Part shown: in pieces, positions 2,715-37,979 of the stretch
How the letters are laid out: each line of letters opens with the position of its first letter
Numbering within the stretch: the first letter of the stretch is position 1
Virus record (IMG/VR): IMGVR_UViG_3300020411_002746
Coordinates: 1-37,979 of that record
DNA: 37,979 bases
Reading direction: 5' to 3' (one strand)
Source of the DNA: a virus
The notes under the pieces: generated by a model
Database searches by the model: none
Seen by the model: the letters and a program-made list of their open reading frames with translations, nothing else
What the model was told of the DNA's origin: nothing
Position numbers and translations under genes: made by a program

Positions 2715-2719
2715 AATCC

Positions 2720-3792: not shown

Positions 3793-3795
3793 ATG

Positions 3796-5426: not shown

Positions 5427-5487
5427 TTAAGTTACATTCAATGAGTATATAAATGTTCCATGTATTGATGGATCAGGATCTAAAATA

Positions 5488-5495
5488 TATTTATA
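5488..5495 (-). promoter_or_regulatory. Late promoter octamer upstream of the fibre genes
   Basis: Minus strand reads TATAAATA, the T4 late consensus. It overlaps the stop of the 66-residue gene (its TAA is part of the octamer) and ends 61 bases before the 75-residue fibre-like gene. The spacing is longer than the roughly 20 bases seen at gp25 and gp8, so its activity is less certain. Confidence 0.55.
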
Positions 5496-17400: not shown

Positions 17401-20400
17401 AATACCAATCCAAGGATGAGTTGTCTTAGGTACAATAGCACTAGCAGCTGCACTTACAAATGTATGATCATAACTACCACCTTCATAAATTGCATCTGCT
17501 GTTGCACTTACAAATGTATGTGCATAATCACCACCAGAAACAACTGAACTAGTTGCAGAACCAACAAATTTATGTGCATATCTTGCACCAACTAAACCTT
17601 TAGCAGTAACAATTCCAACTGGTTCAAATAAATCTCCTCTTTCAAAGGAATATCCTGGATTTTTAATTTCAAATTTAGATATGCTGAATAAATTAGGATT
17701 AGCAGGTGTTCTGATTGGTAAAACAGATGCACCAACAGCAATAGTAACAATTCCTACCAATACATCAATAGCAGAAGCAACGTTTGCACAATCACCAACT
17801 GTATATTCTCCAGGTATTCTTGTATAATCTCCTCTTATTCCTTTATCGTAAATTTGCTTATAATTGGTAAATGCTGTTGAAGATACACCCACATTTACAG
17901 TAAATGTATTTCCGTCTACAGCATCAACTTGAATTGATTCATTATGAGCAAAATCAGTTGTACGAGGATAATGATGTTGCGTAGCATGATCATCCTTATC
18001 ACATGTGAATGTTAATGAAGTAGTAGCAATTCCAACACTGCTGGATGATCTTTCAATACCACCAGTAGTTGCAGATACAAATGTATGAGCAGATAAATCT
18101 GGAGAAACACCCACATTAACTGCAAAGGTATTAATTCCTACACCAGAAACTGATAACCACTTGTTACTTGCAGGATCACTAGGTCTAGGATAAGAATGTT
18201 GTGATACATGATTATCCTTAGCACATGTCATTAATATAGAATCATCTTTAATCTTAATATAATCACCATTAGTAAACTGATGATGAGGAATGTTGAGGAT
18301 CAATACACCTGTACTTGGTGTATATGTACATGTTGTTATTGTATGCTTAGTTGGAGCACGTAATCCATGATTAGGTGATGTTAATACCAACTTACCATCA
18401 TTAGGAGCATAAGTCGCAGTAGAAATACCTTTAGTTACTAAAGTTGTTATACCCACATTAACTGTAATTGTAGTAGCTGCAGTTGCTCCAACACCAATTA
18501 CTGCTTTATGTACAGGATCATTATTACCAGCTCTTCCGACATTAACAGTAAAGTCTTTATCATTATTTTTAGTAATCGATAATGTTGCTCCAGAAGCTGG
18601 ATCAGATGAACGTGGATAAGTATGATTAGTAGTATGATTATCTAAAGCACAAGTAAATGTTAATGAATTATCATCTAAAGTAATAGTATCACCACTTACC
18701 ATATTATGATCATTAACAAATTCTAATCTTAAATCACCAGTTTCAGGAGTGTATGTTGCTCCAGAAGGTCTCTTTTGTGATCCATTCTGTGATCCACTTG
18801 TTACATTAACAGAATTATTAAGAGAAGATACAAATGTATGTGCATATCCAGCACGAGGATAAGCATGTTGTGTAGCATGTGAATCTCTAGCACATGTAAA
18901 TGTTAGAGATGCTGTATTAATTCCAATATTACTTACTGCCTTCTTAAGGCTATTATTAACTACAGATACAAGAGTATGAACACCAACATTATCACTAATC
19001 TTATTTGCATATCCAACATTAACTTCAAATGTGTTAGCGGCTACACCAAGAATTGGAAGCCATCTACCACTAACAGGATCTGATGAACGAGGATATGTAT
19101 GTAATCCAGCATGATTATCTTTAGCACATGTAAATTTCAATGCTCCATCATCTATCTTAACGTATTCACCCTTGGCAAATCCATGACTTGCAAGTGTGAA
19201 TGTACAAATACCAGTTATTGGTGTATATGTGGCAGTAGATATTGTATGTGAAGTAGCAGGGAATAATCCATGTAAATTCCCAACTGTCATTGTTAAATCA
19301 CCAGTTCCAGGAGTATATGTCGCAGCAGAAACTGGATGATATACTAAAGTTGATACACCAACATTAACAGTAAACTTAGTTAAGGTTGTAGATGCAATTG
19401 CAACACTAGTTGAATTATGAATTGGATCAGTTGTACGAGGATATGTGTGCTCAGTAGCATGATTATCTCTTGCACAAGTGAATGTTAGTGAATTAGTAGC
19501 AATACCAACAGTATCAACACCATGTCTAAGATTATGTCTACCAGAAACTGTAATTGTTAATAAACCAGTTGATGGTGTATAAACTGCCTGTGTAGGTGTT
19601 AATCCAGCACCAACCCAAGAACCAATACGAACTGCACCAGAAGTAGCACTTACAAATGTATGTGCATAATCACCACCACTGTATACTGCACTACTTGCTG
19701 CACTTACGAATGTATGTGGATAATCACCACCACTAGTTACAGCATTAGCATTTGAAGTTACAAATTTATGAACATACTGTCCACCAGATTGAATACCAAT
19801 ACGTTCATTACGCATTGCTTGTATTGACATATCTCTGGCTTGCTGGAAAGCATATATTGTTTGTGGTTCTTCATCAGCAACATGAGCACCATCTATATAA
19901 AGTTTTGCAGCATCATAAGTTCTATCATTACCACCATATTCAGTATTATATGCAACAACATCTACAACATCTATAACGTCATCAATACAATCTTGATTGT
20001 CACCTGTAGGAACAGAGAATGCTGGATACTTATCTAACATACGCTGAACAGCAACTTCACCAATTAGTGTTTTGTTCTGGCGAATAAGAGATGCAGCATC
20101 ACCAAATCTATCTTCTTGAGGTTTAGCACTTGATGGTTTAGATTCAAAAGTCATTGATAAACCAATACCTGTTGATGTAGTATCACCAAGACCCAATCTA
20201 GATAATCCTTTAACACCCAAATTAGCATATGCTGGATTATCTACATGTATAACTGGATTTACATATCCAGTACCCATACCAACTATATTAAATGTTAATT
20301 CTCCACCATCACCTGATTGTGATTTACCAACATTTAAAGTAAATGTATTAATAGTTGTTGTTCCAATTGAAATGGATTTATTATTAGCAGGATCAGTTAA

Positions 20401-23400
20401 ACGTGGATATGAATGCTCAGAAGAATAATTATCTTGTCCACAGGTAAATACTATTGAATTTGTTGCAATACCAACGATATTACCTGCAGTTTGTCCATGC
20501 CCAACGGATGTTACAATTAAATCTCCAGTTGCAGGATTATATTCAGCATCAGAAATATTATGATACTTAACAGTTGATATTCCAACATTAACAGTTACAG
20601 TATGAGGACTACTGGTTGTAACGGCAGTAACATCTATATTCTTTCCATCAACAGGATCAGTTGCACGAGGATAAGCATGTTGTGTAGCATTATTATCTTT
20701 AGTACAAGTAAATGTTAGAGTATTTCTTCCAATTCTAATGAAATCACTTGCAGTAATACCATGAGCATTAGCAAATGTTAATACAAGAACACCTGTAGCA
20801 GGATCATAAGTTGCACCAGTTGGTGTTGTAGCAGCACCACCAACTTTAGTAACTGCACCAGCAGTAGCACTTACGAAAGTATGTGCATATTGTCCACCAT
20901 AGTATATGGCACTGGTTCCCGCACTTACAAACTTATGAGGATATTCTGCACCAACTGTAGCAACAATAGTAGCAGCACTTCCAACATGTTGTGGATCAGA
21001 TATTGCAATACCAACTTGTCCACTATATCCAGATCCAAATGTTCCTGTAGTTCCTATACCAATAGAAGTTATTGCACCATCAGCGTTCACTGTAGTGGTG
21101 ACTGATGCTCCTACAAGAGGTGCATAACCCAATCCACCTGTAGATCCAAGAGAAACAATTACACCGCCTCTTGGGATCTGATTCTGGTTAATATCATAAT
21201 CAACAGTTATAATATCATCCGTACCAGTTCTAGTAATTCCAGTAAAGGTTACACTAGTAATTCCAGCAGTTTCTGCAAATGCATAGTTATTTCCAGCATT
21301 ATTAACTGTATTTGGTGTTTGGAATACATCATTAATGAATACAAGATCACTTCCAGCTTCTACACCAGTTGTATTCTGACCTTCCTTATAAACAGTAAAT
21401 GATCTTCCAATTCCATTGAAACTTAGAGAAATATCATCATATACTTTATTACCAGTATAATCTGTACGAAGATAAACTCTACCATTAAATGTAGATTTCG
21501 CTTTTGCAAGAGCACTGGAGTTTAATCTATTATTATCTCCTCTACCATCAGGAGCATCAGTAAACCATATTTTATTTCCTACAATATTAAAAGCACCTTT
21601 GTATATTCTAATTGAACTTCCATCAGTATGAGTTGTTGCAGAAGTTCCAACAAATCCTCTCTTAACTTCAATAACAGGATATGTTCCAACACCAGAAATA
21701 GGTCCAACTGGAAGAGTACCTAATCCAACATTAAGAATATCAAGAAACTCATCATCTAATTTTACAATATCTCTTGGTTTTATTGATGAAATACCAGAAA
21801 GTGATAAGAATGTTAATCCAGCACCAATAGTTGAAGTATTATTTGCAAGAGTATATGATAATGGAGTATACATCAAAGGATATTGGGTTACACCATCAAC
21901 AGTAATTAATGCTTTTTCAAGCTTCTTCTTCATTTCAAGTCTATGATAATTACCTGTTCCTGTAGAAGTAAAGGTAAATCCTACACCTGGATTAGAAGAA
22001 GTTCCTCCAGAAGTACCAGTAATCTTAAATGTATCTTTAGTAACTTTAATAGCATAAACTGTTGTTGGACAAATAGTAGTTGATAAACCAACTTCAAATC
22101 TTTCTCTGAATGTAGTTCCAGTAGAAACATTATTCATAGTTAATGCCCAATCAACATCAGTTGAATAGAATGTTACACCTGTTCCTGCTGATGCTGATGC
22201 AACATTAGCACTCATTGTAATGGAATTAATTCCAATGTTTGTAATAGTTGATCCAGAACCTGATATTACAGCATCTGTTGATTGATTGAATACAATTGAT
22301 CCAATACTCAATAATGTTGTATTAGCAATACCTGTAATAACATTACTAGAAGCACTAGAATTACCTATAAAGTAATTGTATGATGTATTAATCCCTGTTA
22401 TTGAATAATCATCTACAAGCTTACCACTAGTTGCAAGATGTTCAATTGATTGACCAACTGCCATTGAAGTAGTATCTGCAATACCAGTAACAGTTGAGAA
22501 TCCAGCAATAATATCAGCAGTAAACTGTACACCTTGTACTCTAGCAGATCCAATACCAATAGGTGTTCCTTCAATACCAAGTAAAGTTGAATCTGGAGTA
22601 TAAATCAATTCTTCACCAGTTTCAAAGAAATGATTATCGATACTAAAGAGACCTGTAGCACGATTTAATATACTTGCAGTCTTTGGATTAAAGGTCTTTT
22701 GATATATTGGTATATTATTATAATTAACATCAAAATCTAACTTATCTTTACCAAATTCATTTAATGATCCATAGAATGCATTACTTATTTTTTCAATTGA
22801 TGTTCCATAAGTAAAGCTTCCTGGAATGTTAAACTCATCTTTATCAGCATATATTATTTGATTAAATGCCTGTACTTCTACATCGTCTGAAGCAAATTCT
22901 GGATCTGGATGAAATATAACTGAAAGAGTGTCTCCAGATAAAGCAGTTGAAAATGTTCCAATACCAGATGTACTACCAACAGATATAAATGGAGAATGCA
23001 TTGAAGCATGTCTATTTGTATCTAATGAAACCCATAGATTATGAACAGCTGCAGTAGATCCTACCCCAACTTTAATTATAGATTTATCAGAAAATTCTAG
23101 AGTTTTATCTAAAGTAAAGACAGTAGTTGCACCATTAGCAATCTTATACACAGATTCTAATCTTGCAGTTCTTTCTGTTCCAGCAATTTGATCAGGAACG
23201 AGATATCTATATGTTGCTATACCAGCAGTAGTAGATCCTATACCAACTACTTTAGTTTTAATAGTAACATTATCATTAACCATATTATCAAACTTCAATC
23301 TCATAATACCACTATCAACAGTTAATCCAAAAGTACCAATATAACTTCCAGAGAAACTTTGGAAATTATCAGTATCAAAATAAGATTCTGCTATATGAGT

Positions 23401-26400
23401 ATCTTGCCCATCATAATATCCAGCAACTTCAAAATAATTCTGCCTTTCAGTAGATTCATTTCTTACATGGGCATATCCAAAGAAAGCATCAAACTTATTC
23501 GATAATGATCTAAAGACTGTTGTACTAAAACCAAGTGTTCCAGATCCATTTGCTGGTCCCAATCTTTCTGTCTTAGAAGATAATCTAGTAAATCCAATAT
23601 CGGTAAATCCTACCCCAATATTAAATGGAGCAATATCAAATGATTCTCTATAAACTTTTAGATCATAACTAAAATCATTTGGATTTGTTGGGGTAAATCT
23701 TAAAACAGGATCTCCAACGTCTCCTAACAATGCACTAAAATCACCAAGTTTTGTATCGGTATACACATCTGCTTTATTTGCAGTAAATGTACTATCAAAA
23801 TTGTTTAGAACAACAACTTCACTTAATTGGCTAGTTTGTTTTTCTTCATCTGTTACTTGTATTAAGAACTTAGAATAGAAATCTGTAATAGAATATAATG
23901 ATACATCAGTAAAAGTCTGCCTATTTAATTCAGAACTTGAAAAAGCACCACTAATATCATCTATTTGAAGAACCCTATTAGTATCACATAAAATATAATC
24001 TGTTAATTTCTTACTTTGGAAAAGAATAAATCTAGAGAAATCTGCACCAGGATCATAATCTGCAACTAAATCAAAATTATTAATAGTATCAACTCTTCTT
24101 GAAGATATGAAATCTAACACAGGAGATAGAGATTGTGTTACTCCTATAGCAACTTGTGCTTTTGAAAGTACTTCAGTATCAGCAAAATTCTTCATTCCTA
24201 CTGTATGAACCAGTTTATTAACTGGATCAACCATCTTATCCCAAGTTATTGGACTCTTAACAGTGTATGAAAGATTTTGATAATAATCATTATCTGGTAT
24301 TACTTGAAGATCATTACTTAACTGTCCAGTATCATCTTTCCATCCAAATTCTTTTCTATTCGCATAATCAATTACAAATCTATTTTCATATGCATCAATA
24401 CTATGAACTGTAGCAAAATTACCAGATGTTGCTCCAATTAAAACATCACCAACTTTTACTTCATAATCACCAACAACTTTAATAAAACTCTTATCTACAA
24501 CTTTAATTTGTAAATCTGTTAGAGTATCATTTATTTTAATAAATTCTTCAACATAGAAAAGACTTGGTACTCTAGTAATAGAAAATTCAGGATAATTATC
24601 AGATTTAACAATAGAAGTAAATGTAGTCTCAGAACCTAAAGGATTTCCAGCATTGGTAGTATAATCTCCAATATTATATTCTAAAACAGCTGGATTAGAG
24701 TTTGTATATGAAGTTACTCTAAAGAAATTATAATTATGATCTGTTGAGTTGAATCCATCACCTGGAGTTGTTACATTTCCTAAATCATCAGTTTGTGATT
24801 TTCTACCAAGACCTTCAACAAAAATCTTATCACCAACTTTAAATGGTGGAACAATAAATCCATCAATAGCTGGTGTATTAAGTTCTAATGTTACAACACC
24901 AGTATTTGAATTATAATTTGTTATTCTTACAACTTGTATTCCATTACTATTCCTTATAGTATAAAGTCTATGAGATACTGCATCTAATCCTTTTGGCTCA
25001 TCAATAATTTCAATACCTTCTATTGAATTGGAATTAAATGATGGATCAACTCTTAATGCTCCACTATCAACAACTTTTTTAGTATATTCATTAACTAGAA
25101 CAACATCTGGTGGAGAAGTATAATTTCTACCTCCACTAATAACTTCTATTCTTGTTATTTTTTCAGATCCTTCTAATCCAAGATGAGTAAAGATCTCTGC
25201 TTGAGGATTAAGAGTTGTATCTGATGAATATTCAAATCCCTCATTTATAATTCTAAATTCATTAAGTTTACCAATACTATTGGTTTTTGGTCTAATAATT
25301 GCATTATTACCAAGAGAAGTTGATGTTCCAGTAGACAATCCACTAATAGTTGGAAGTTTCTTGTAATTTGCACCACCAGAAATAATATTTAATTTGGTTA
25401 TTGGTCCACTAGCACTTAAAGAAGATGTAGTATATTTTAAATCAGTACAATCAGATTGAATATACTTTAATCTTTCCGGAACTTCATCCAAAGAAATAAA
25501 GAATGAAGTAGAACCTATTCCAAAAGCAGTAAATGATCCTTTATAAACACTATCTCTATATAAAATTTCAGAATAATCCTTAACGTCTTTATCAGGATCA
25601 ACAATTACACCAGTCTTTTCTAAAGAATAATATAATTTAGTAGGTAAATCTTTATTATATGTAATGCTAGCTGTTGCATATGTATTAATACCAACAGTTC
25701 CATTTCTTACCACTGAGAATGTATTAGTTGTTCCTGTCGAAACAAATTGGTTACTTACATTCTGATCATAGAATAATTTAAACTGATAATCTATTAATGA
25801 ACTATCAGATAAATCAAATACTACATTATTATTTTTAATAACTTCAATTTGAGGATTAACTTTACTTATTTCTTGAACTGCTCCTCCAGTACTACCAATA
25901 CTAATAATTTTTGGTGGATCTGAGAATACATCTATATAAGTATTTGCTAATTTAATATTATTATCATCTATCTTATATACAAAATAAGATCCTGTATCTA
26001 ATCCAGCAGCAATATCATTATCACCTGCAGAATAGAAAACTTTATCTCCAGAATTTAATTGATGGCTATTAAGATTAAAACTACTATGTAATCTATCTGT
26101 ACCATAAGATGAATTTCTAACTAAACTTGAAGTAAATCCTATAGGATTAATAAGAATCTTATTATAAGTGTTATTATACTTAACTTTTATAGAAACATCT
26201 TCATCAACACCTAGAGAAAGTCTTGGTTTAACATCTAATTCAATTTTATCTTGATTAGTTAAATTATGTACTGTTGAAATTGCTACTAGAGTTTTAATTT
26301 TACTAGCAGTAGCAACTAATTGAGTCTTAGTAGATTCTAAAGAATAATTGTAACTATTGGAACCATTATTATTAAAGAATAACCCACTTGTGCTTGTTGT

Positions 26401-29400
26401 TAATCCAATTTGTGTTACAAGACCTACAAAATCTTTTCCTTGATTTACAACATATACTGTTTGTTCATCACCACTTACTGGTAAATTAATATTAGGTCCA
26501 GAAGAAGTATTTCTGACTTGTATTGCATTATCACTACTATTTTTTCTTAAAACAAGTGCTTGATTTGTTTTAAATGGATGATTTGGTAAATAAATGCTTT
26601 GAGTTGGTATTGATATAACTTTTTTAGTATTACCAACAAAATGAGCAATAGATGACTCTGTACCTGTTGCTACACCTACACCAACAGACTGATTTGGGTT
26701 AAAGTAAACTTTATCATCCTTCTCAGATTCAAAATAATCCGATGCTAATGGAATAGTAAATGAATCTGCTCTAAAGTAAATATTAGTACCTATAGTATGA
26801 GCAACACCAGTTAATTCTCTCTTAACTCTTATTATATTTTGATCATCATACCTATCAATAACAATTAAGTTTTCTGTTCCAATACCAACAGATGTTCCTG
26901 CACCAATTAGAGGTGGTATACTAGAAACATAGATGTCTGTAACAATACCAGAAGTAGAATGTTCTGGTAGATCATCAATCAAATAAGATGTTTCTGAAGT
27001 AACCCCTATTATATGAGAATCTAATAAACCATCTACGTGAGTAGTAACACCTGAAATCGTAATTCTATCACCATTTAGAAGATTGTGTGTTTTTGGTGAA
27101 AAATTACCATCATAATGAGTATATACTCTTAAATTTTCTTGATTTTCCCAAACAATAACTGAATTTTCAAATTTATCATAGGAAGTAGTTAAATCTACAA
27201 TCTCTTTACCATCAACAGAAGTAACTTCTGCAGTCGCTCCACCACCTTCAGTATTTGTATTATCAAAATTAACAGTATTTCCAACCTTATAATCTGTTCC
27301 TGGATTAACAATAGTTAATGAATCTATAGTTCCTCTAGAAGCAGACTCAATAATAGCAGTTTGATTATATTCTTCGTTAGATTCAACTAAGAAATCATTT
27401 CCAGAATAATCTTGTCTTACTCTATAAGGATAAGTATTTCTAACTAATTCTGAATTAATAAAATTAAAATCTTGATTGAGTATTGTTACTGAAGGATTTG
27501 ATCTATAAGTATCACCTATAAAGTAAGGAAATGCTGCCTTTAATGTATTATTATCAAAATTAGTAGTTACTCCAGCATGATATGCATAAACGCCATTAGG
27601 AAATTCTGGTGTTTTTGTAAATCTACCATTATGAGCATCTAAATGCCCAGTACTAGCAAATTTATAATCTTCAACAAAATAACCTAATTCAAAATCAGTT
27701 AATGGAGGTCTATCGATAATATTATATTGTGATGCACTATATCCTGTTTCTAATTTTACAATTGAAGATGTTAAATCTTTTGGATCATCATATCCAAATG
27801 GTCCATAAATTGGATTACCATCATTAGCCCATCCTATAACTCCAGAATGACCTGTATCTGGATTTGGATCACCTACTGCAGTACCATCTCTAATAGTTGA
27901 ATATCCAACGATAGTATATGATAAATCGTCTTTATTCTCATATAATACCTCATCACCAAATCTAGCATAGTTATTAACTACGAGTGGTCTTACGCTTGGA
28001 TCTAAAACACAATTTCTACCAGGAGGAGTTATAGAAATTGAAGTACTATTATCTTCATAATTCGTTCCTTTATTAAGAACAACAACATCAATAATTCTAC
28101 CATTTGCAACAACTGCTCTTATTTTTGCACCAGCACCTTTACCTTTAACAGTTAGATCTGGAGCAGCATTAAAGAATGATCCACCATTCTGAACTTCTAC
28201 TGCAATTAACTTACCATCTTTTACAATTGACTTCAATTGAGCAGAAAGTCCATTTTTAATTGTTAAAGATGGTTTTCTTTCAAAATTGAGAATTTTTGAT
28301 CCATATCCAGTTCCTTTTTCATATGCAAATACATCAACTATTTCACCTCTAACAATTGGAGTTGCTGTAATAGTACCTATAGAACCACCAGTAATTTCAG
28401 CATTTACATTAATAGTAACGGGTGGGTATGAAATCCTTTGCCATCCAGTACCTGGAAACTTAAATCTTACAAAATTCCTACTTTCATAATAGTACTCTGC
28501 AGTAGATTTAAAGAATGGACTTGCATCACTAATAGATGATCCAGTATTTGTAATTGCTGTTGGTGAAACGTCAAATGCAGTTACTGAACCAGAATTCTTA
28601 CAGCACAATAATATAGTTCCAGGAACGTCTTTAAGTGGTGCTTTTGATGGTGTAAAGTCTGAAATATATCTTGCAGCACCTTTAACTAACCTCAAGTTGG
28701 AAATATTTCCATTAAAATTACCAGCACTAGCAGTTGCACTTCCAATTCTAGGTTGTGGAGAATCATTATTAGCAGTTATACTAGTAGTATAAGTTGTTGA
28801 AACATCTAATATACCATCAATAAACAATCTTAATGTTCCAGATGATCGAGTTACAGCAATATGATGCCATACATCATCATTAACAAGTTTAGCACCATTA
28901 GTATCTAAGTTACCTGTACTAGCATCTACAAGATGAATTGTACCAGCAGGTGAACTATCTACTGTTATTTGGAAATTACCAACACCATTGCTACCACCAT
29001 TAGTCTGCCAAATACGTCTTTCTCTACCAGAATCAGCACTAGAATCAGCAGTTTTTATCCAACATTCAAATGTGAAATCCTCAGTTCCAATAACAAAATC
29101 AGAATGATCACCAATATCAAGTCTATCACCATCTCCATCAAATAAAACTGATCCTATTTTTTCTTCTGTAACACCAACATCTGATAATTGGAAACTATCA
29201 TCATTTAATTTCATTACATAATAGGAATTTTCACTAGAAAGACCTATTACTGGATTTCCTATAGTTCCAGTATTAGTATCTTCATAACTGTAATTTACTA
29301 TTTCACCATCATTAAATCCATGATTTTTGAAATTTATAGTACTTACAGATGTTGTAATACCAGTAGGAGCAACTCTCATTACTCTATTTTCATATCCATA

Positions 29401-32223
29401 ACCTGGATTAAGGATCTTAAATTCAGATATTACATCTTTTTCATTAAGCTCTCTAAATTTATGAATTCCACCAGTATTAATAGTGGTAAATCCAACCGTA
29501 TTAATACCAGCATTATATTCGTCTAGAGTTTTATGAAGGTATATTGCTCTAGTGTTTATAATTTTTGGATAATAAATCGCACCATTAACAAGAAATTCAT
29601 TTTGATCTGTATTAGAACCACCAAAAGTACCTATTCCAAGTGGTAAATTTCCACTTGGGTTGTAAACAATTGGTTCACCTTCCATAAATCTATGTTCTTT
29701 TTCAAAAACTATAGTTTCATTAGTAACATCAACACCACCAGTTAATGCAACACCAACTTGCGAAGCATTAAATTCTACTTCTCTATATTGTTTTACCAAA
29801 ACTGGTAAAATATTAGCATCTTTACCATTTCCACCATCAATAGTTGCAGAAACAATCCTTTGAATACTAAAATCTTGAGGATCAACTAAAACATCTTTAA
29901 CAGATCCCCTAACGACAGCAGTAAGTAATGCTGTAGTACCAATACCAACAGATGGTTTAGAAGCTAGAATTGAAGGTGGATTTATAACATCATAATCAGT
30001 TCCTGTATTATAAACTTTAACATCTTCTAAAGGACCGTAATAAATTTTATCATCAGTTTTGTAATTTAATATCTCTACACCATTTACCAACATACCAACA
30101 GGTCCAAATGTTGTTGGTGTATCAGTTCCAGACTGAATATTTGGTACTAATGGAATCTTTGCTAATGCTTTCTTAGGTGCTAAACTTCTACCACTATGCT
30201 GCCTTAAAGTGAATGTATGAGTTGATGTTGCATAATATGCATCAAATTGAACATACTTAGTAGTTCCTATAAAGGATTTTGAATCATATAATCTTATAGT
30301 ATTAGTATTATTACCATCTTTTATTACTTCTACATGATATACTTCATTTAATTTTAAACCAGATATTACATTGTCAGAACCAGATGATGTATATACAACT
30401 TCATCTCCTGTAATAAATGGAACATTACTATCAAATCCAAGAATAGAATACTGATTTGATCCAGAATCATATCCTTTAAAATGATTACTTATAGTTGTTG
30501 ATGGTGTTAAACTAAAAGAAGAAAATGATTTTTTCTTTGTTATTTGATATTTTGGTAATGAGTTTGATGCAACATACATATACTCATCTTTTTCATTATA
30601 AACATTCTGAACATCAGCAATAATATTTGAAGATGATAAGTTTAAGTTTGATGCACCTGCATAATCATATCTTTTTCTTATACTTAATTCAGTATAAGAA
30701 GGAACAGTAATATTTTGATCAATTTGTACTGTTTTATCATTAATGAAAGTTACTGTAGCAAGAGTATTAACTGCACTTTGAGCATTTCTATTTAAAATAT
30801 CAACAGTATCACCAACTTTTAAACTAGCTCTATCTGCCTTTTCAAATAAAACAATTTGGTTATTACTAAAGCTTTCTATTTCATATCTAGATCTTACATT
30901 ATATTTCCACGTATTAAATGCAAATTCTTTGAAATTTCTGTTTTTATTTAAAATATTTTCACCAAGGTTTTTGACAGAAACTAAATCATCTTCTAATAAT
31001 AATCCAAATTTAGATTTATCTTTAATATCTGAAAGAACACCAGTTATTCTTAATTCAACTTTCCTACTTGAATCCCCATCTTCGTATCCAAATATAATTT
31101 GATCAGAACGAATATCATCAGTTGGGTTAATAACTGCAGTTACACCACTACAATCAAAGAACTGATTAACATTTTTATTACCATAGCTAATAGTATTATT
31201 ACCTGATATTACTGTTCCAGTAGTTCCAAATCCAACTGTAGAATCTACTGTGATTACAGATGATCCAATAGAAACAGTATCCGTAACCTTAGTTTTTGGT
31301 GAAATTGTAAAATTACCTTGAATTAGACTTCTTTCATCAAATCCAGAGAATAATTGTATTTTATAAAAAACTCTATTATTTCTACTAATAATTTCAACTT
31401 CAGAAACTGGTCCAGCAGCAGTATTATTAGATTGTTGAACCATATGCCCAACTAATTTATTGGGATCTCCACTTATTTTCTCACAAACTAATACTTCTCT
31501 ACGAATAAATTCTGCATCAGATGATTTAAGTAAATATTCTTCTAAATTTATTATTTTTGGTTTATTACCAAATAAAACAGCAAAAAGGATATTAAATGCT
31601 TCATTTGTACCTTTTGCTTGATAAAAATCACGAATTTGCTTAATAAAAACGTTAATATCTAAAGTTTTTACAAAATCAACATCTTCAAACCCAGGTGCAA
31701 GAAGAACTTTTAGTTTTCTATAAAATTCTTGTAAAAATAAAGCACTTAAATTGTTTACTCTAAGTCCATTATCATGTGAACTTGCTGAAGTATCAGAAAA
31801 AACTAATTCTTCGGAATTAAGTGGATCCCTATAACTTGTAATACCACTAAATCCACGAACACAACCAGTAAAACTAGTTGAAGTTTTTCCAGTATATGTT
31901 ATTACCTCATCATCTAATCTAAAAAGACCATATTCATTAGGAAATCCCTTTGTATTATCAACAGCAATAGTAGTATCTGATGCTGATATAGCACTAGTTA
32001 AAGATGTGATTCCTGCAACCACATCTTGGGTCATATTGTTGAAATTTATATATTGATCTAAATTTTCAGCAATATCAATAGGTCCACCTTGATATTCTTG
32101 CGAAATATAATATTGTTTTAAAAATTCGGCTGCTTTCGGTGCTTCTGATAATACAAACTCAGGTAACTGATTATCAATTATTTGTTGTACTTTGACCCTA
32201 GCATCAAACCCTGTCTTTATCAT
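14419..32223 (-). CDS. Giant 5,934-residue gp7-position baseplate protein with domain repeats
   Basis: One uninterrupted frame of 17.8 kb lies between gp6 and gp8, the T4 gp7 slot. Residues 197-222 include FYQAKGTNEAFNILFAVLF, resembling T4 gp7 (FYSTKGIEASYKFLFKVLY), where this motif is near the C-terminus. The first 260 residues may therefore be the wedge-anchoring part. Next come GxGY modules, a LamG-like lectin fold (about 1024-1197), a YHYH-like domain (about 1459-1566; NDGNPIYGPFGYDD, YAYH), and a DE...VKRGF module (about 3465-3545). Then follow two 'VNGV/INDV-F-Q-x-P' modules (about 3590-3680 and 5331-5428) and the repeat region (about 3750-5310). The C-terminus has LSWGRLAGFTRSS and RRGYGLR. 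T4 gp7 is 1,032 residues. No enzyme motif was seen. It starts 1 base after gp6. A structural role is near certain; gp7 equivalence is inference from the slot and one motif. Confidence 0.85.
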   Translation of the reverse strand: MIKTGFDARVKVQQIIDNQLPEFVLSEAPKAAEFLKQYYISQEYQGGPIDIAENLDQYINFNNMTQDVVAGITSLTSAISASDTTIAVDNTKGFPNEYGLFRLDDEVITYTGKTSTSFTGCVRGFSGITSYRDPLNSEELVFSDTSASSHDNGLRVNNLSALFLQEFYRKLKVLLAPGFEDVDFVKTLDINVFIKQIRDFYQAKGTNEAFNILFAVLFGNKPKIINLEEYLLKSSDAEFIRREVLVCEKISGDPNKLVGHMVQQSNNTAAGPVSEVEIISRNNRVFYKIQLFSGFDERSLIQGNFTISPKTKVTDTVSIGSSVITVDSTVGFGTTGTVISGNNTISYGNKNVNQFFDCSGVTAVINPTDDIRSDQIIFGYEDGDSSRKVELRITGVLSDIKDKSKFGLLLEDDLVSVKNLGENILNKNRNFKEFAFNTWKYNVRSRYEIESFSNNQIVLFEKADRASLKVGDTVDILNRNAQSAVNTLATVTFINDKTVQIDQNITVPSYTELSIRKRYDYAGASNLNLSSSNIIADVQNVYNEKDEYMYVASNSLPKYQITKKKSFSSFSLTPSTTISNHFKGYDSGSNQYSILGFDSNVPFITGDEVVYTSSGSDNVISGLKLNEVYHVEVIKDGNNTNTIRLYDSKSFIGTTKYVQFDAYYATSTHTFTLRQHSGRSLAPKKALAKIPLVPNIQSGTDTPTTFGPVGMLVNGVEILNYKTDDKIYYGPLEDVKVYNTGTDYDVINPPSILASKPSVGIGTTALLTAVVRGSVKDVLVDPQDFSIQRIVSATIDGGNGKDANILPVLVKQYREVEFNASQVGVALTGGVDVTNETIVFEKEHRFMEGEPIVYNPSGNLPLGIGTFGGSNTDQNEFLVNGAIYYPKIINTRAIYLHKTLDEYNAGINTVGFTTINTGGIHKFRELNEKDVISEFKILNPGYGYENRVMRVAPTGITTSVSTINFKNHGFNDGEIVNYSYEDTNTGTIGNPVIGLSSENSYYVMKLNDDSFQLSDVGVTEEKIGSVLFDGDGDRLDIGDHSDFVIGTEDFTFECWIKTADSSADSGRERRIWQTNGGSNGVGNFQITVDSSPAGTIHLVDASTGNLDTNGAKLVNDDVWHHIAVTRSSGTLRLFIDGILDVSTTYTTSITANNDSPQPRIGSATASAGNFNGNISNLRLVKGAARYISDFTPSKAPLKDVPGTILLCCKNSGSVTAFDVSPTAITNTGSSISDASPFFKSTAEYYYESRNFVRFKFPGTGWQRISYPPVTINVNAEITGGSIGTITATPIVRGEIVDVFAYEKGTGYGSKILNFERKPSLTIKNGLSAQLKSIVKDGKLIAVEVQNGGSFFNAAPDLTVKGKGAGAKIRAVVANGRIIDVVVLNKGTNYEDNSTSISITPPGRNCVLDPSVRPLVVNNYARFGDEVLYENKDDLSYTIVGYSTIRDGTAVGDPNPDTGHSGVIGWANDGNPIYGPFGYDDPKDLTSSIVKLETGYSASQYNIIDRPPLTDFELGYFVEDYKFASTGHLDAHNGRFTKTPEFPNGVYAYHAGVTTNFDNNTLKAAFPYFIGDTYRSNPSVTILNQDFNFINSELVRNTYPYRVRQDYSGNDFLVESNEEYNQTAIIESASRGTIDSLTIVNPGTDYKVGNTVNFDNTNTEGGGATAEVTSVDGKEIVDLTTSYDKFENSVIVWENQENLRVYTHYDGNFSPKTHNLLNGDRITISGVTTHVDGLLDSHIIGVTSETSYLIDDLPEHSTSGIVTDIYVSSIPPLIGAGTSVGIGTENLIVIDRYDDQNIIRVKRELTGVAHTIGTNIYFRADSFTIPLASDYFESEKDDKVYFNPNQSVGVGVATGTESSIAHFVGNTKKVISIPTQSIYLPNHPFKTNQALVLRKNSSDNAIQVRNTSSGPNINLPVSGDEQTVYVVNQGKDFVGLVTQIGLTTSTSGLFFNNNGSNSYNYSLESTKTQLVATASKIKTLVAISTVHNLTNQDKIELDVKPRLSLGVDEDVSIKVKYNNTYNKILINPIGFTSSLVRNSSYGTDRLHSSFNLNSHQLNSGDKVFYSAGDNDIAAGLDTGSYFVYKIDDNNIKLANTYIDVFSDPPKIISIGSTGGAVQEISKVNPQIEVIKNNNVVFDLSDSSLIDYQFKLFYDQNVSNQFVSTGTTNTFSVVRNGTVGINTYATASITYNKDLPTKLYYSLEKTGVIVDPDKDVKDYSEILYRDSVYKGSFTAFGIGSTSFFISLDEVPERLKYIQSDCTDLKYTTSSLSASGPITKLNIISGGANYKKLPTISGLSTGTSTSLGNNAIIRPKTNSIGKLNEFRIINEGFEYSSDTTLNPQAEIFTHLGLEGSEKITRIEVISGGRNYTSPPDVVLVNEYTKKVVDSGALRVDPSFNSNSIEGIEIIDEPKGLDAVSHRLYTIRNSNGIQVVRITNYNSNTGVVTLELNTPAIDGFIVPPFKVGDKIFVEGLGRKSQTDDLGNVTTPGDGFNSTDHNYNFFRVTSYTNSNPAVLEYNIGDYTTNAGNPLGSETTFTSIVKSDNYPEFSITRVPSLFYVEEFIKINDTLTDLQIKVVDKSFIKVVGDYEVKVGDVLIGATSGNFATVHSIDAYENRFVIDYANRKEFGWKDDTGQLSNDLQVIPDNDYYQNLSYTVKSPITWDKMVDPVNKLVHTVGMKNFADTEVLSKAQVAIGVTQSLSPVLDFISSRRVDTINNFDLVADYDPGADFSRFILFQSKKLTDYILCDTNRVLQIDDISGAFSSSELNRQTFTDVSLYSITDFYSKFLIQVTDEEKQTSQLSEVVVLNNFDSTFTANKADVYTDTKLGDFSALLGDVGDPVLRFTPTNPNDFSYDLKVYRESFDIAPFNIGVGFTDIGFTRLSSKTERLGPANGSGTLGFSTTVFRSLSNKFDAFFGYAHVRNESTERQNYFEVAGYYDGQDTHIAESYFDTDNFQSFSGSYIGTFGLTVDSGIMRLKFDNMVNDNVTIKTKVVGIGSTTAGIATYRYLVPDQIAGTERTARLESVYKIANGATTVFTLDKTLEFSDKSIIKVGVGSTAAVHNLWVSLDTNRHASMHSPFISVGSTSGIGTFSTALSGDTLSVIFHPDPEFASDDVEVQAFNQIIYADKDEFNIPGSFTYGTSIEKISNAFYGSLNEFGKDKLDFDVNYNNIPIYQKTFNPKTASILNRATGLFSIDNHFFETGEELIYTPDSTLLGIEGTPIGIGSARVQGVQFTADIIAGFSTVTGIADTTSMAVGQSIEHLATSGKLVDDYSITGINTSYNYFIGNSSASSNVITGIANTTLLSIGSIVFNQSTDAVISGSGSTITNIGINSITMSANVASASAGTGVTFYSTDVDWALTMNNVSTGTTFRERFEVGLSTTICPTTVYAIKVTKDTFKITGTSGGTSSNPGVGFTFTSTGTGNYHRLEMKKKLEKALITVDGVTQYPLMYTPLSYTLANNTSTIGAGLTFLSLSGISSIKPRDIVKLDDEFLDILNVGLGTLPVGPISGVGTYPVIEVKRGFVGTSATTHTDGSSIRIYKGAFNIVGNKIWFTDAPDGRGDNNRLNSSALAKAKSTFNGRVYLRTDYTGNKVYDDISLSFNGIGRSFTVYKEGQNTTGVEAGSDLVFINDVFQTPNTVNNAGNNYAFAETAGITSVTFTGITRTGTDDIITVDYDINQNQIPRGGVIVSLGSTGGLGYAPLVGASVTTTVNADGAITSIGIGTTGTFGSGYSGQVGIAISDPQHVGSAATIVATVGAEYPHKFVSAGTSAIYYGGQYAHTFVSATAGAVTKVGGAATTPTGATYDPATGVLVLTFANAHGITASDFIRIGRNTLTFTCTKDNNATQHAYPRATDPVDGKNIDVTAVTTSSPHTVTVNVGISTVKYHNISDAEYNPATGDLIVTSVGHGQTAGNIVGIATNSIVFTCGQDNYSSEHSYPRLTDPANNKSISIGTTTINTFTLNVGKSQSGDGGELTFNIVGMGTGYVNPVIHVDNPAYANLGVKGLSRLGLGDTTSTGIGLSMTFESKPSSAKPQEDRFGDAASLIRQNKTLIGEVAVQRMLDKYPAFSVPTGDNQDCIDDVIDVVDVVAYNTEYGGNDRTYDAAKLYIDGAHVADEEPQTIYAFQQARDMSIQAMRNERIGIQSGGQYVHKFVTSNANAVTSGGDYPHTFVSAASSAVYSGGDYAHTFVSATSGAVRIGSWVGAGLTPTQAVYTPSTGLLTITVSGRHNLRHGVDTVGIATNSLTFTCARDNHATEHTYPRTTDPIHNSTSVAIASTTLTKFTVNVGVSTLVYHPVSAATYTPGTGDLTMTVGNLHGLFPATSHTISTATYTPITGICTFTLASHGFAKGEYVKIDDGALKFTCAKDNHAGLHTYPRSSDPVSGRWLPILGVAANTFEVNVGYANKISDNVGVHTLVSVVNNSLKKAVSNIGINTASLTFTCARDSHATQHAYPRAGYAHTFVSSLNNSVNVTSGSQNGSQKRPSGATYTPETGDLRLEFVNDHNMVSGDTITLDDNSLTFTCALDNHTTNHTYPRSSDPASGATLSITKNNDKDFTVNVGRAGNNDPVHKAVIGVGATAATTITVNVGITTLVTKGISTATYAPNDGKLVLTSPNHGLRAPTKHTITTCTYTPSTGVLILNIPHHQFTNGDYIKIKDDSILMTCAKDNHVSQHSYPRPSDPASNKWLSVSGVGINTFAVNVGVSPDLSAHTFVSATTGGIERSSSSVGIATTSLTFTCDKDDHATQHHYPRTTDFAHNESIQVDAVDGNTFTVNVGVSSTAFTNYKQIYDKGIRGDYTRIPGEYTVGDCANVASAIDVLVGIVTIAVGASVLPIRTPANPNLFSISKFEIKNPGYSFERGDLFEPVGIVTAKGLVGARYAHKFVGSATSSVVSGGDYAHTFVSATADAIYEGGSYDHTFVSAAASAIVPKTTHPWIGIGITPTDADYNAETGALLLTFASSHGLTGSDKIGIATNSLVFTCARDNYATQHAYPRSSDPVHNNGEISIASTTTDTITVNVGVSTIVNHPVGVVTYVPSTGNIVVTVGAGHSFTGFSTHTISTCTYTPSTGTLDFTVTGHGFSEGEYIQIPNNSLRFTCAKDNHATFHTYPRNNDPSASRWLPIQQVGVNTFQVNVGNAKDSTAGVHRYVSSATPNVPAHLNKATYTVGFSTGGMVFTCAKDGHATQHAYPRTTDPVHNREVGISVADATSIVLNVGISTIVRFTPSGANYNPNSGDLILITDNLHKMKVGDVVGINTDSLTFKCAQDGYLTNHTYPRSTDPANDAQLGITTTTDYTFTVNVGASPVAQARKRLKLSVEDTFNDSFASWQLGEFDYIDSIGDLQDGNRTRFPLYKNSQLLSFQKDLADVTSSLIDFDAVLLIYVNGVMQEPKVSYEFTGGTTFTFLQAPLKEDKVDIFFYRGTRDVDSFEKDIPETVKPGDDVQINKNDQISGTIGQDSRTITRILASDTTETGIYLGDGIDSVNYKPIDWSKQKRDMLIDENPVYKTRDSLEGHVFPTAKVIKDFKSDDEEIFLDDAQFFNYEENESTIEIDKVSGILFDGTTSYFADLKANVSVAGTVTSISVAAGGTGYTPGTLALKISPPVGSTLDSFWNKNGDINVGVHTVFKTVVSGVGSIGAGSTVINGISTEGIRIGQTIQAIPNILGTGLTVTGITSAYGGTILYAGIGGTQASGNTSSMFDEFHFGRYEDQKLASATATVDSNGNITGTTMVNPGFGYTSTNLPLVIAPLPAAQKELISGIRFVQGFTGIVTGITTSVGVSHPLAITFHMLYDVNDSTRLDDLTTGHPIHISQTTVGHGVTSVDGSNTSVVGRGSTFCDNIYQVHSITRTSLTGIITCNVHTGISTVGLHSMSGEHVGRLSWGRLAGFTRSSTSIGVAVSGYTVNSGLTTFPVIQRRGYGLRDKGSLRKDLGL
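16370..20970 (-). repeat. Protein-level tandem repeats in the giant gene: Cys-Asp-His-YPR domain (12 copies) and AHTFVSA motif (10 copies)
   Basis: Twelve copies of a domain whose core is [LIM]-x-[FM]-[TK]-C-x-x-D...H-x-YPR, usually followed by x-x-DP and ending V-x-[VL]-NVG, lie between about 16,370 and 20,740. Cys, Asp, His and YPR are kept in all twelve. Ten copies of Y-x-H-[TK]-FV-[SGT]...A-[VI] occur as runs before groups of the first domain. Copies 3-5, 6-8 and 9-11 follow an alternating order in which the middle one has W-L-[PS]-[IV] after DP, so a three-domain block was probably duplicated. Spacing between copies varies (about 220 to 730 bases). DNA copies are diverged, so this is not a recent amplification. 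Confidence 0.85.
27526..27849 (-). other. YHYH-like domain inside the giant protein
   Basis: Residues about 1459-1566 show HSGVIGWANDGNPIYGPFG, then a segment with LDAHNGRF and FPNGVYAYHAG. The pattern of NDG-x-PIYGP, L-D-x-x-NGR and Y-x-YH is that of the YHYH family, which is found in bacterial surface proteins and marine phage virion proteins. Its biochemical role is not known. The conserved His and Asp could hold a metal, which is inference. Confidence 0.75.
28630..29153 (-). other. LamG/concanavalin-like domain inside the giant protein
   Basis: Residues about 1024-1197 of the giant protein begin SVLFDGDGDRLDI and contain DFTFECWIKT, then WHHIAVTRSSGTLRLFIDG and NGNISNLRLVKGAARY. This order (F-DG...L, FTxExWI, WHHIAVTR, LxLFIDG, G-x-I-x-x-LR-x-x-K-G-x-A-x-Y) is the standard LamG_3/concanavalin-like jelly roll of many phage proteins. 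Such domains bind carbohydrate or act as structural decorations. No calcium site was assigned. Confidence 0.88.
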
Positions 32224-34510: not shown

Positions 34511-34518
34511 TATTTATA
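34511..34518 (-). promoter_or_regulatory. Late promoter octamer before gp25
   Basis: Minus strand reads TATAAATA, matching the T4 late consensus, and ends 20 bases before the gp25 ATG. It sits in the 31-base gap between the 45-residue ORF and gp25. Confidence 0.78.
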
Positions 34519-35257: not shown

Positions 35258-36016
35258 TTAGATCACTCTCGTTTTCTCGTGACCAACTCTAACACGAGGA
35301 TCGCACCATATCTCGAAACCTGCTTCCTTTGCATCTAAACAGAATGATACGTCTTCTCCACACATATCCTGTACTTCACCTGATTCAAATACTTGCATCT
35401 GTGGAGCAAACCAGGGATACTTCATTTTCTCGTGTTCAAATACACCATTTTTAATGAGTAACCATCCAAAACCTGTGTAATCACAAGTAAAAGGCTTTCT
35501 ACGCTTACTCATACTCTCTAATGTTTCATGATTCATAACTCCACCATTCTTACGGAAGTCATCCTCTTCTAACCAGTGAGCAATCGATGTAGTTTGACCA
35601 TCTTCTGTACAATACCAACCTGCTGCAAGATCTTTATCCATTAGAACAAGTTGCCAAAACTTTTCAGTATTAAAAACAATATCACTATCAATCCATAATT
35701 GCCAATCATATTTCAATTGACCATCCCAAGGTTTCTGATCTGGACCTCTTAATACATTAGCACCTAAACATTTGCATCTTGCAAAGTTTACCATAGATGA
35801 ATAATCTTGAGATATTTGTATGCTTGCACCTGCTTGTACTAGATCAAAGCATAACTGTACAAAACTTTTAAGATATGCATATGATACTCCTCTACCTGGA
35901 AGACAAAATACTATGGCTTTTCCCCTAACCATCTCTTTTGCTTTTTCATAATCCCATTCTGCTTCTTTATTTGCAACAGTAGGTTTCTTTGCTTTAACGG
36001 TAAATCCTTTAGCCAT
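35258..36016 (-). CDS. GT-A-like glycosyltransferase
   Basis: This 252-residue protein has the layout of a GT-A-fold glycosyltransferase. KAIVFCLPGRGVSYAYLKSF (33-52) forms the first beta-alpha unit. WQLWIDSDIVF (105-115) contains the D-S-D metal and sugar-nucleotide motif. GEDVSFCLDAKEAGFEIWCD (220-239) is the ED acid motif followed by the helix, and a late His (RVGHEKTR, 243-250) may bind metal. It would move a sugar from a nucleotide sugar to an acceptor in the cell; the acceptor could be phage DNA, a virion protein or host envelope, and the sequence does not say which. The start is preceded by AAGGAA about 12 bases upstream. It is first in a four-gene operon whose promoter matches the sigma-70 consensus in both hexamers. 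Confidence 0.82.
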   Translation of the reverse strand: MAKGFTVKAKKPTVANKEAEWDYEKAKEMVRGKAIVFCLPGRGVSYAYLKSFVQLCFDLVQAGASIQISQDYSSMVNFARCKCLGANVLRGPDQKPWDGQLKYDWQLWIDSDIVFNTEKFWQLVLMDKDLAAGWYCTEDGQTTSIAHWLEEDDFRKNGGVMNHETLESMSKRRKPFTCDYTGFGWLLIKNGVFEHEKMKYPWFAPQMQVFESGEVQDMCGEDVSFCLDAKEAGFEIWCDPRVRVGHEKTRVI

Positions 36017-36039: not shown

Positions 36040-36068
36040 ATTATATCAGATTATATAGTAACTGTCAA
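36040..36068 (-). promoter_or_regulatory. Consensus sigma-70-type promoter for the glycosyltransferase operon
   Basis: On the minus strand TTGACA (36068-36063) is followed by 17 bases and TATAAT (36045-36040). Both hexamers and the spacing are at the bacterial consensus. Transcription would start near 36033, giving a leader of under 20 bases before the ATG at 36016. The -35 box overlaps the TGA stop of the 56-residue gene. A second TATAAT at 36055-36050 lies in the spacer. Such promoters in T4-like phages are used early by host RNA polymerase. Confidence 0.85.
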
Positions 36069-36537: not shown

Positions 36538-36560
36538 AAAAAACGGGGCATCACGCCCCG
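36538..36560 (-). terminator. Intrinsic terminator after the 72-residue gene
   Basis: A 6-bp all-GC stem (36544-36549 with 36555-36560; CGGGGC/GCCCCG) and a 5-base loop are followed on the minus strand by six T (complement of AAAAAA at 36538-36543). It stands about 26 bases past the stop at 36587 and marks the end of the higher-GC island. Confidence 0.88.
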
Positions 36561-36586
36561 CACTGTCAAATCACGAACGCATGAGG

Positions 36587-36805
36587 TCAACCGATGATGA
36601 TGCCCCGTCGTCCCTGTGCCTTACGGTCTGCTATCAACATTTCCCGATAGCGTTGTTGAACCTCAAAGAGATTGTCGACCATTTGCTTTCCTAATCCACC
36701 CGCCTTTGTGAATGTCATCCCACCGCCTGATGATGCCCTGAGAGCATTACCCCGTGAGTTGAAGTCTGTTGAACGGGTTGACCCGATTGCTTTGTGACGT
36801 GCCAT
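36587..36805 (-). CDS. 72-residue basic protein, function unknown
   Basis: The protein starts MARHKAIGSTRSTDFNSRGN and has a glycine-rich middle (ASSGGGMTFTKAGGLG). A charged helix (QMVDNLFEVQQRYREMLIAD) and a basic end (RKAQGRRGIIIG) follow. It has no cysteine or membrane segment. Basic character suggests DNA or RNA contact or a minor head component, without proof. Its DNA is about half GC (32 of 60 bases at 36601-36660), well above the virion genes. A TATAAT-containing motif stands about 27 bases upstream, and a strong terminator follows, so it is probably a single-gene unit or the end of the ligase-like transcript. Confidence 0.75.
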   Translation of the reverse strand: MARHKAIGSTRSTDFNSRGNALRASSGGGMTFTKAGGLGKQMVDNLFEVQQRYREMLIADRKAQGRRGIIIG

Positions 36806-36823: not shown

Positions 36824-36837
36824 ACTCTTTTATTATA
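36824..36837 (-). promoter_or_regulatory. Promoter-like motif before the 72-residue gene
   Basis: Minus strand reads TATAATAAAAGAGT, 18 bases before the ATG at 36805. It differs at one of 14 positions from the motif upstream of the ligase-like gene (37916-37929). TATAAT fits a -10 box, but no -35 box of good quality is visible upstream, where a hairpin lies. Confidence 0.55.
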
Positions 36838-36843
36838 AGGGAT

Positions 36844-36862
36844 GGGGTCAGCGAATGACCCC
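36844..36862 (-). other. Intergenic hairpin after the ligase-like gene
   Basis: GGGGTCA (36844-36850) pairs with TGACCCC (36856-36862) across a 5-base loop, 14 bases past the stop at 36876. On the minus strand no T run follows (CATCCC instead), so it is not a typical intrinsic terminator. It could stabilise the 3' end of the message or act in processing, or attenuate readthrough into the 72-residue gene. Confidence 0.6.
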
Positions 36863-36875
36863 TACTGTGTGCGGT

Positions 36876-37787
36876 TTATTCAGTGGCACACCATTTTACA
36901 TTATTGAAATTAGCATGAGAGAATGTCTCACGAATGACCAATTTCCATGATCCTGCGTCAGAGTGCATCACGTAACCCTCCGCATCTATGAGGTCATTAC
37001 CGATGTATGCCTCAGGTCCCCAACGATGGCGACATTGTGATAGGGCAATCTCCTTAATTTCCTTAACCAGTTTCCAGAGTCTGACCAGTTGATAATTTGC
37101 GAACTCTTCGGGGATGATTTCGTCACCGTCTCTGATGTACGCATTGAGGTCCTGCTTAAGTTGCTTCGCTCCCTTAGCGTCCTCAAACTCAACCAGTCCT
37201 GCCATGATCCGTGCGAACTTACAAAGGTCACCCAACTCAAAGGAATCCTCAAAATATTCAAAACTTCCAGAGTGAACACCTGCACCAGGTTGGACAAATT
37301 TGCAGCACTCCGTCCCCTCCAAATTTTCCTTAAGGGGTTGAGCGACTGCGTCACGAAGGTCCGAGTCTGCCAAATATTCTGTATGGGGTGCGACGATGAT
37401 ATCCTCATCAACTTCGTCATTGAAAAAATATGTGATGGTGTTGGGGGTGTACTCCTGCTGTCCTCCGAATCCGATGAAATCACCCTGAATAATTCCGTCA
37501 TGATCAGGTAGGTTATCAAGACAGGCATGTAGAATGTCTGCAACGTTCCCGTCATGATTCTGATCAATGTCCGCATGGCACTCATTAATTTTGATTTTCC
37601 TTTTGTTGAATACTGATTTTGTCCCTACAAAGAAATTGCCCGTCGCTGGATTTGTACCCCATACTATAGCGGGTGCTCCGTCGTATTTGACCGACAAATG
37701 TTGGGGCAACAAAAAAGCATCCAACACGGTTAGGTCTCCGGTGAGGATGCTGTCTTCGGGGTGCTCAAGATGAATGTTTTTAGTCAT
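36876..37787 (-). CDS. ATP-dependent ligase-like nucleotidyltransferase
   Basis: The 303-residue protein carries the nucleotidyltransferase motifs of the DNA/RNA ligase fold. Motif I is SVKYDGAPAIVWG (32-44), with Lys34 in K-x-D-G as the expected adenylated residue. A motif III-like element is GIIQGDFIGFGG (98-109), with Asp where ligases often have Glu. Motif IV is AEGYVMH (269-275) and motif V is WKLVIR (281-286). No OB-fold domain follows, so it is a minimal catalytic domain. It may seal or adenylate nucleic acid, or have become a structural or regulatory protein. I associate the N-terminal HLEHPEDSIL with a phage family of unknown function (DUF6267, from memory). GC is well above the virion genes. 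Confidence 0.75.
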   Translation of the reverse strand: MTKNIHLEHPEDSILTGDLTVLDAFLLPQHLSVKYDGAPAIVWGTNPATGNFFVGTKSVFNKRKIKINECHADIDQNHDGNVADILHACLDNLPDHDGIIQGDFIGFGGQQEYTPNTITYFFNDEVDEDIIVAPHTEYLADSDLRDAVAQPLKENLEGTECCKFVQPGAGVHSGSFEYFEDSFELGDLCKFARIMAGLVEFEDAKGAKQLKQDLNAYIRDGDEIIPEEFANYQLVRLWKLVKEIKEIALSQCRHRWGPEAYIGNDLIDAEGYVMHSDAGSWKLVIRETFSHANFNNVKWCATE

Positions 37788-37915
37788 GCTTAAAAATCGG
37801 GAAAAATGCTTTGGGGTGTGGGTGAGGTAGCAGATGTCTGTAGAATCTGATTTGGCAGATCAGAATTAAATCCTAACGGATCGCCTTCTACTCAGGGATG
37901 CCAACCTCGTCTCCC

Positions 37916-37929
37916 ACTCTTTTATAATA
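37916..37929 (-). promoter_or_regulatory. Promoter-like motif upstream of the ligase-like gene
   Basis: Minus strand reads TATTATAAAAGAGT, 13 of 14 bases the same as the motif before the 72-residue gene. It follows the terminator at 37936-37957 at once and lies 128 bases before the ATG at 37787, leaving a leader of more than 100 bases. A short inverted repeat (TCTGAT/ATCAGA, 37846-37864) lies inside that leader. Confidence 0.5.
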
Positions 37930-37935
37930 CCAAAT

Positions 37936-37957
37936 AAAAACCCCCGTTAGGGGGTTT
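37936..37957 (-). terminator. Intrinsic terminator at the right edge
   Basis: An 8-bp stem (AAACCCCC/GGGGGTTT, 37938-37945 with 37950-37957) with a 4-base loop is followed on the minus strand by T residues and TTATTTGG. It would end a transcript from a gene to the right of the window. The last 22 bases of the window belong to that upstream unit and are too short to assign. Confidence 0.85.
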
Positions 37958-37979
37958 GGTGTGCCAGTTTCTTAAGCGG

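Follow-up and report, generated by a model that had tools for sequence, protein, structure and literature searches.

Two nearly identical 14-base sequences that precede the two genes of a GC-rich island in a T4-type phage contig are probably the -10 box and start site of a composite terminator-promoter, in which a protein bound to an upstream dyad would activate sigma-70-type transcription from a promoter without a -35 element. The contig, an IMG/VR virus record of 37,979 bases that was analysed over its whole length and is called the window here, carries T4-type baseplate genes (gp6-like and gp25-like), and its nearest cultivated relatives are cyanophages, e.g. S-SKS1, P-SSM2, and P-SSM5. The GC content of the two-gene island is 0.47, compared with about 0.27-0.39 in the remaining window. 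As originally predicted, the two 14-mers differ at a single base (TATAATAAAAGAGT at 36837-36824 and TATTATAAAAGAGT at 37929-37916, both on the minus strand) and precede both genes of the island, lying 18 and 128 bases ahead of their start codons. The parts of the two elements and of the island, in the direction of transcription, are:

37959-37978, minus strand: upstream dyad of element 1 (left half CGCTT, 37978-37974; right half AACTGGCACAC, 37969-37959)
37938-37957, minus strand: intrinsic terminator of element 1, AAACCCCCTAACGGGGGTTT followed by TTATTT, between the dyad and the -10
37916-37929, minus strand: element 1, -10 TATTAT followed by AAAAGAGT; predicted +1 at 37917 (G)
37788-37917, minus strand: DUF6267 leader, whose 5'-terminal stem GUGGG/CCCAC opens at the predicted +1
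36876-37787, minus strand: gene 1, encoding a 303-aa DUF6267 protein (PF19782, phrog_455)
36872-36885, minus strand: upstream dyad of element 2 (left half CACTG, 36885-36881; right half AACCG, 36876-36872)
36844-36862, minus strand: hairpin of element 2, GGGGTCATTCGCTGACCCC, between the dyad and the -10
36824-36837, minus strand: element 2, -10 TATAAT followed by AAAAGAGT; predicted +1 at 36825 (G)
36587-36805, minus strand: gene 2, encoding a 72-aa protein with relatives solely in uncultivated virus contigs
36543-36561, minus strand: intrinsic terminator 3' of gene 2, GCGGGGCGTGATGCCCCGT TTTTTATGGA

Within the 37,979-base record, TATAATAAAAGAGT and TATTATAAAAGAGT are the sole matches to the motif at zero or one mismatch, and the pattern read backwards has none at up to one mismatch. 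A search of the window that allowed two mismatches returned 5 matches where 3.6 are expected, and in 12 of 40 dinucleotide shuffles two different intergenic stretches of the window shared a 14-mer to within one mismatch. Considered alone, then, the pair in the window is within chance, and the weight of the observation derives from related contigs.

Across 305 kb of related contigs, picked by protein homology only, TATWWTANNRGAGT occurs 24 times, and 19 of these occurrences fall within the 16 kb outside open reading frames (ORFs). By comparison, 200 permuted patterns gave a mean of 1.95 occurrences in total and of 0.14 outside ORFs (maximum 6), and the reversed pattern occurs once. The search of relatives that had been proposed as a check on the original prediction bore it out in this respect: the copies are mainly intergenic and are oriented with the genes. 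Upstream of DUF6267, six relatives keep the motif as TATTATAAAAGAGT, TATATTAAAAGAGT, TATTATTAAAGAGT, or TATATTAGAAGAGT, in each case directly downstream of a strong terminator, and single related contigs carry at least four copies on one strand, adjoining gp25. When a looser pattern was applied to all contigs, a set that also takes in contigs retrieved with the motif itself, there were 86 matches, 84 of them with an ORF behind, and these ORFs form 25 protein clusters; once genic chance matches and near-duplicates were removed, 67 modules remained ahead of 21 families. The motif precedes more than 20 unrelated gene families, and for most of the downstream genes the start codon lies 15-21 bases past the GAGT. 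A PHROGs comparison of ten of the downstream families returned either unknown-function families or no match.

We also note that near-identical modules stand ahead of two unrelated neighbouring genes in each of two contigs (L057, 7775 and 8251; L083, 1453 and 1929), and these twin modules look like a duplicated regulatory unit. Whether modules have been homogenised within a contig was tested by their similarity, with no significant result (20 of 300 permutations).

When the modules are aligned on the -10, their order from 5' to 3' is a dyad, a C-run/G-run hairpin that in most cases has a T run, TATWWTA, and RGAGT. The dyad consensus of the 67 modules is CASTT-N4-AASTGKCMCAC, its right half begins 38-40 bases ahead of the -10, and the distance from dyad to -10 does not depend on whether a terminator is present (48 modules) or absent (19). 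Hairpins are present in the spacers of 54 of the 67 modules, compared with 8 when the spacers are shuffled. As for a -35 hexamer, TTG at a spacing of 16-18 is found in none of the 67 modules, against 5.1 expected. In the window, the terminator of element 1 fills the -35 region and closes an upstream gene that lies outside the window, a position that is conserved in relatives. The dyad of element 2 is imperfect (CACTG..AACCG), with its left half within the end of gene 1 and CACACAG after its right half, and the element 2 hairpin lacks a T tract and is not a classical terminator.

The original prediction was that the 14-mers may be a promoter class of their own, perhaps middle or early. This is partly supported: the element behaves as a class apart from late promoters and, beyond what was predicted, from canonical TTGACA-17-TATAAT promoters as well. 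The 14-mer is just the -10/start-site end of the element, however, and the prediction had missed the dyad, which lies some 39 bases upstream, the intervening hairpin or terminator, and the lack of a -35. The seventh base past the -10 is the usual position of transcription start, and the GT of GAGT is therefore most likely +1/+2. To call the AAAAGAGT after the -10 box invariant was too strong: the A stretch varies (AAAA, AACA, AATA, AAGG, TAAA). In the genomes of P-SSM2 and S-SKS1 the exact form shows no enrichment, with 5 matches compared with 6 for the backward control. GAGT is common in the window's clade, and the wider class retains just a purine-T at the seventh and eighth bases past the -10.

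The same geometry emerged from a scan of IMG/VR that looked for AACTGGCACAC and, 24-32 bases on, TATWWT, and that placed no condition on GAGT, the hairpin, or the left half of the dyad. It gave at least 139 matches, and among the matches listed the gap was 27, 28, or 29 bases in 120 of 139; a control gap of 44-52 bases gave a flat distribution, again among the matches listed. In the 106 non-redundant scan matches among those listed, the left half MCASTT (C in 90%) emerged unselected, as did the purine-T at the seventh and eighth bases past the -10 (92% and 81%).

To place the element among phages, 13 cultivated-cyanophage records were surveyed for the dyad and -10 at the fixed distance, allowing up to one mismatch, and 65 matches were found compared with 3 for the backward pattern. 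The matches are distributed over S-SSM7 (13), P-SSM2 (12), S-SRM01 (7), S-SKS1, S-T4, and S-CAM7 (6 each), S-BM3 (4), Bellamy and S-SCSM1 (3 each), an 8-kb AG-345-L05 contig (4), and AG-345-O18 (1); S-SM2 and SynMITS9220M01, which have no dyad plus -10 match at up to one mismatch, are counted as having almost none. Four further cyanophages have 15 matches compared with 1 for the backward pattern (S-PM2 7, P-SSM4 4, Syn9 2, and P-HM2 2), and no dyad plus -10 match was found in T4, KVP40, or Pelagibacter phage HTVC008M. A pattern for the right half only gave the same picture. Most of the cultivated cyanophages tested carry the element, and in several phages of the wider class a TTG-type -35 accompanies some of the elements.

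The strict palindrome has just 13 scattered matches in 257 Gb of bacterial and archaeal genomes. A host regulon was rejected, as the palindrome is practically absent from bacteria and the two matches in cyanobacterial MAGs have no -10 at the right distance; the near-absence from bacterial genomes points to a phage factor instead. One of the 13 matches is in a contig binned as Flavobacteriales (TMED113; L428, 4382-4405), which has the dyad followed by TATAATAAAGGAGT and is probably a cyanophage contig in the wrong bin. Separately, a related element recurs in the accessory region of S-SKS1 (1843-5606); its spacer is different, with ACCTCAAAATCGTG ahead of TATTGTA, and its copies share the leader GTTAAGTCATCAGGAATTCACC. 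Runs of CACTCACTAACTAACA-like repeats occupy other gaps of that region.

In the mechanism that we favour, the dyad, with its predicted centre near -53, would be the site of a putative protein, and the ~27-29-base stretch that follows, usually a hairpin, would occupy the -35 region and often terminate the preceding transcript. TATWWT would lie at -12 to -7 and the purine-T at the predicted +1/+2, and host RNA polymerase with a sigma-70-type factor would probably start at the last G of GAGT. Because the -35 is absent, the protein on the dyad most likely recruits or activates the polymerase. Where its hairpin has a T tract, the element would end the preceding transcript and start the next one, and every accessory gene would thereby be its own transcription unit, presumably of an early or middle class that is apart from canonical early-type and late (TATAAATA) promoters. 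Shared modules would also provide places at which genes can be swapped, a role that PeSL cassettes play in other T4-type phages. More tentatively, the element may define a cyanophage-wide, MotA-independent promoter class that depends on a putative phage-encoded dimeric activator near -53 and reuses its spacer as a terminator, a broader reading that we hold to be plausible but somewhat short of probable.

Several alternatives to activation from the dyad have to be weighed. Repressor sites, too, are usually dyads, and if the -10 part is the promoter, the dyad could be an operator at which a host or phage repressor later shuts the gene off, with no activator needed; the members in other phages that have a -35-like TTG could indeed act unaided. 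However, a position upstream of the -35 region at a strict distance is unusual for a simple blocking operator, and the window's clade has no -35, which makes the repressor reading unlikely. It is quite improbable that these are ordinary host-type sigma-70 -10 boxes whose 14-mer likeness reflects the common descent of a handful of intergenic stretches in close relatives, without regulatory specificity. Such a reading would accommodate the agreement of TATWWT with sigma-70, the chance level of the window pair, and the homology of DUF6267 upstream regions among relatives, but not the more than 20 unrelated families behind the motif, the strict distance to the upstream site across cyanophage genera, the lack of the element in the other T4-type phages tested, or its difference from the adjacent canonical promoter.

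The dyad lies at the preceding gene's stop codon and ahead of the terminator, as would be expected if dyad and hairpin were RNA elements of that gene's 3' end (terminator, stability, or processing) that the -10 merely follows. Yet there is no covariation between the half-sites at their two central S positions (17/16/9/8, Fisher p = 1), on which ground the RNA-hairpin reading was rejected: conservation of the dyad is not that of an RNA stem. Nor is it kept by coding, since the preceding gene's stop codon takes many places with respect to the dyad, its position ranging from -36 to -59, and constraint by that gene's coding sequence was rejected accordingly. With the dyad-to--10 distance held even where there is no terminator, we consider an RNA-level origin very improbable. 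The replacement of a downstream gene at a conserved module and the presence of one module type ahead of many families could also be read as signs that the modules are mainly recombination or mobile-cassette ends with transcription as a side effect; this is scarcely credible given that no recombinase or end duplication was seen, that the geometry is strict and promoter-like, and that the adjacent gene, which has a canonical promoter, is stable.

The replaced gene is seen on comparison of the window with two related contigs (L119 and L122). The element 2 module and the preceding DUF6267 gene align with identities of 0.75-1.0 per 40-base block, whereas identity drops to 0.28-0.47 beginning 20 bases past the first base of the -10, and the genes downstream of the module belong to unrelated families. 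To judge from the alignment, the junction has the form expected from a cassette swap at the module.

The terminator-promoter with dyad-dependent activation that we propose is most readily compared with PeSLs, which are reportedly promoter-early stem-loop cassettes of T4-type phages, described by Arbiol in 2010 and by Comeau in 2014. As PeSLs are described, the two have in common a stem-loop terminator combined with a sigma-70-type promoter, present many times over among the accessory genes of T4-type phages. PeSLs are also associated with gene shuffling, of which the element shows one clear junction (the window compared with L119 and L122). A PeSL is further described as joining terminator and promoter in one intergenic element, as do element 1 and most of the relatives' modules, and as recurring within a variable region that conserved genes flank, as is seen here by gp25 with at least four copies per contig. 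PeSLs are reportedly active in vivo both as terminators and as early promoters, a double role that the element would share. The strong sigma-70 promoter with a -35 that is reported for PeSLs is not found: the -10 is present, but TTG at 16-18 spacing is not (0/67). Relative to PeSLs as so described, the element adds an upstream dyad at a fixed distance, and the element 2 hairpin has no T tract. We do not file the element as a PeSL, though it would appear to work like PeSL cassettes. The tailed haloviruses HGTV-1 and HF2 are reported to have intergenic promoter-type repeats that precede many genes, with those of HGTV-1 likened to PeSLs (PMC3950731, PMC8707807); the halovirus repeats are archaeal TATA-type promoters, and we claim no sequence kinship with them.

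The element resembles T4 middle promoters (MotA/AsiA) in its combination of a phage-specific upstream site and a sigma-70 -10 with the -35 replaced, but its dyad near -53 is not a MotA monomer site. The MotA box is centred at -30, 12 +/- 1 bp from the -10 (PMC2988021), and in the element the C-run/G-run hairpin, rather than a box with a TGCTT core, occupies that place; moreover, motA and asiA are absent from cyanomyoviruses (PMC2984593). A putative middle promoter has been described in Syn9 and P-SSM4 and was not found in P-SSM2 or S-PM2 (PMC2984593). It is likewise a non-late cyanophage promoter, but the element described here occurs 12 times in P-SSM2 and 7 times in S-PM2, and because it is common in P-SSM2 the two are probably different.

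Two other types of promoter are present in the window:

36040-36068, minus strand: canonical sigma-70 promoter TTGACA-17-TATAAT of the gene at 35258-36016, without the dyad
34511-34518, minus strand: late-type box TATAAATA before the gp25-like gene

The canonical promoter is kept in 19 of 19 non-redundant homologues; measured against its pattern (TTGACA ~17 bp before TATAAT), the element has the -10 and lacks the -35. The late-type TATAAATA also precedes the 5934-aa gene (14416, minus strand), and there is one genic copy at 5495. T4-type late promoters (TATAAATA, gp55) are likewise without a -35 and occur in the same phages, but their core sequence differs; the prediction that the 14-mers are not of the late type was correct, as their core is TAT-W-W-T-A and the late boxes stand elsewhere in the window, ahead of structural genes. 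With canonical, late, and dyad-type promoters side by side in one window, the phage family seems to rely on three or more types of promoter.

How early and middle transcription works in cyanobacterial T4-like phages was described as unclear in a 2010 review (PMC2984593). The fixed-distance sites in P-SSM2, S-SSM7, S-SRM01, S-SKS1, S-PM2, and P-SSM4 are candidate promoters with a putative binding site, open to testing in cultivated phages, and they offer a lead on how marine cyanophages switch on non-late genes. Terminator-promoter modules are dense in uncultivated cyanophages but are reported to be sparse in S-PM2, which lacks the high PeSL density seen in other T4-like phages (PMC4503421), and dense modules would offer uncultivated cyanophages a route for rapid gene turnover.

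In most DUF6267 leaders a stem of differing sequence starts exactly at the predicted +1 G, in agreement with that start site. The inner part of the leader is replaced or deleted in relatives, and because the leader is largely deleted in two of them (L049 and L054), only the 5' stem recurs. A known riboswitch was rejected on the same deletions and the lack of an Rfam match; the leader may stabilise the mRNA or regulate translation. In the island as a whole, an Rfam search gave no match close to the gathering score and a tRNA search found none. The 72-aa protein of gene 2 has 45 related loci in uncultivated virus contigs and no match among 50,697 phage records.

A comparison of the DUF6267 protein, by sequence, with solved structures gave no credible match. 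Two stretches of the protein, KYDGAP towards the N-terminus and EGYVMHSDAGSWKLV towards the C-terminus, are reminiscent of motifs I, IV, and V of the covalent nucleotidyltransferases (DNA/RNA ligases). Finally, a 5934-aa ORF (14419-32223, minus strand) contains numerous TFTCARDNHATQHTYPR-type repeats and is followed by baseplate genes; its product is probably a giant tail or baseplate protein.
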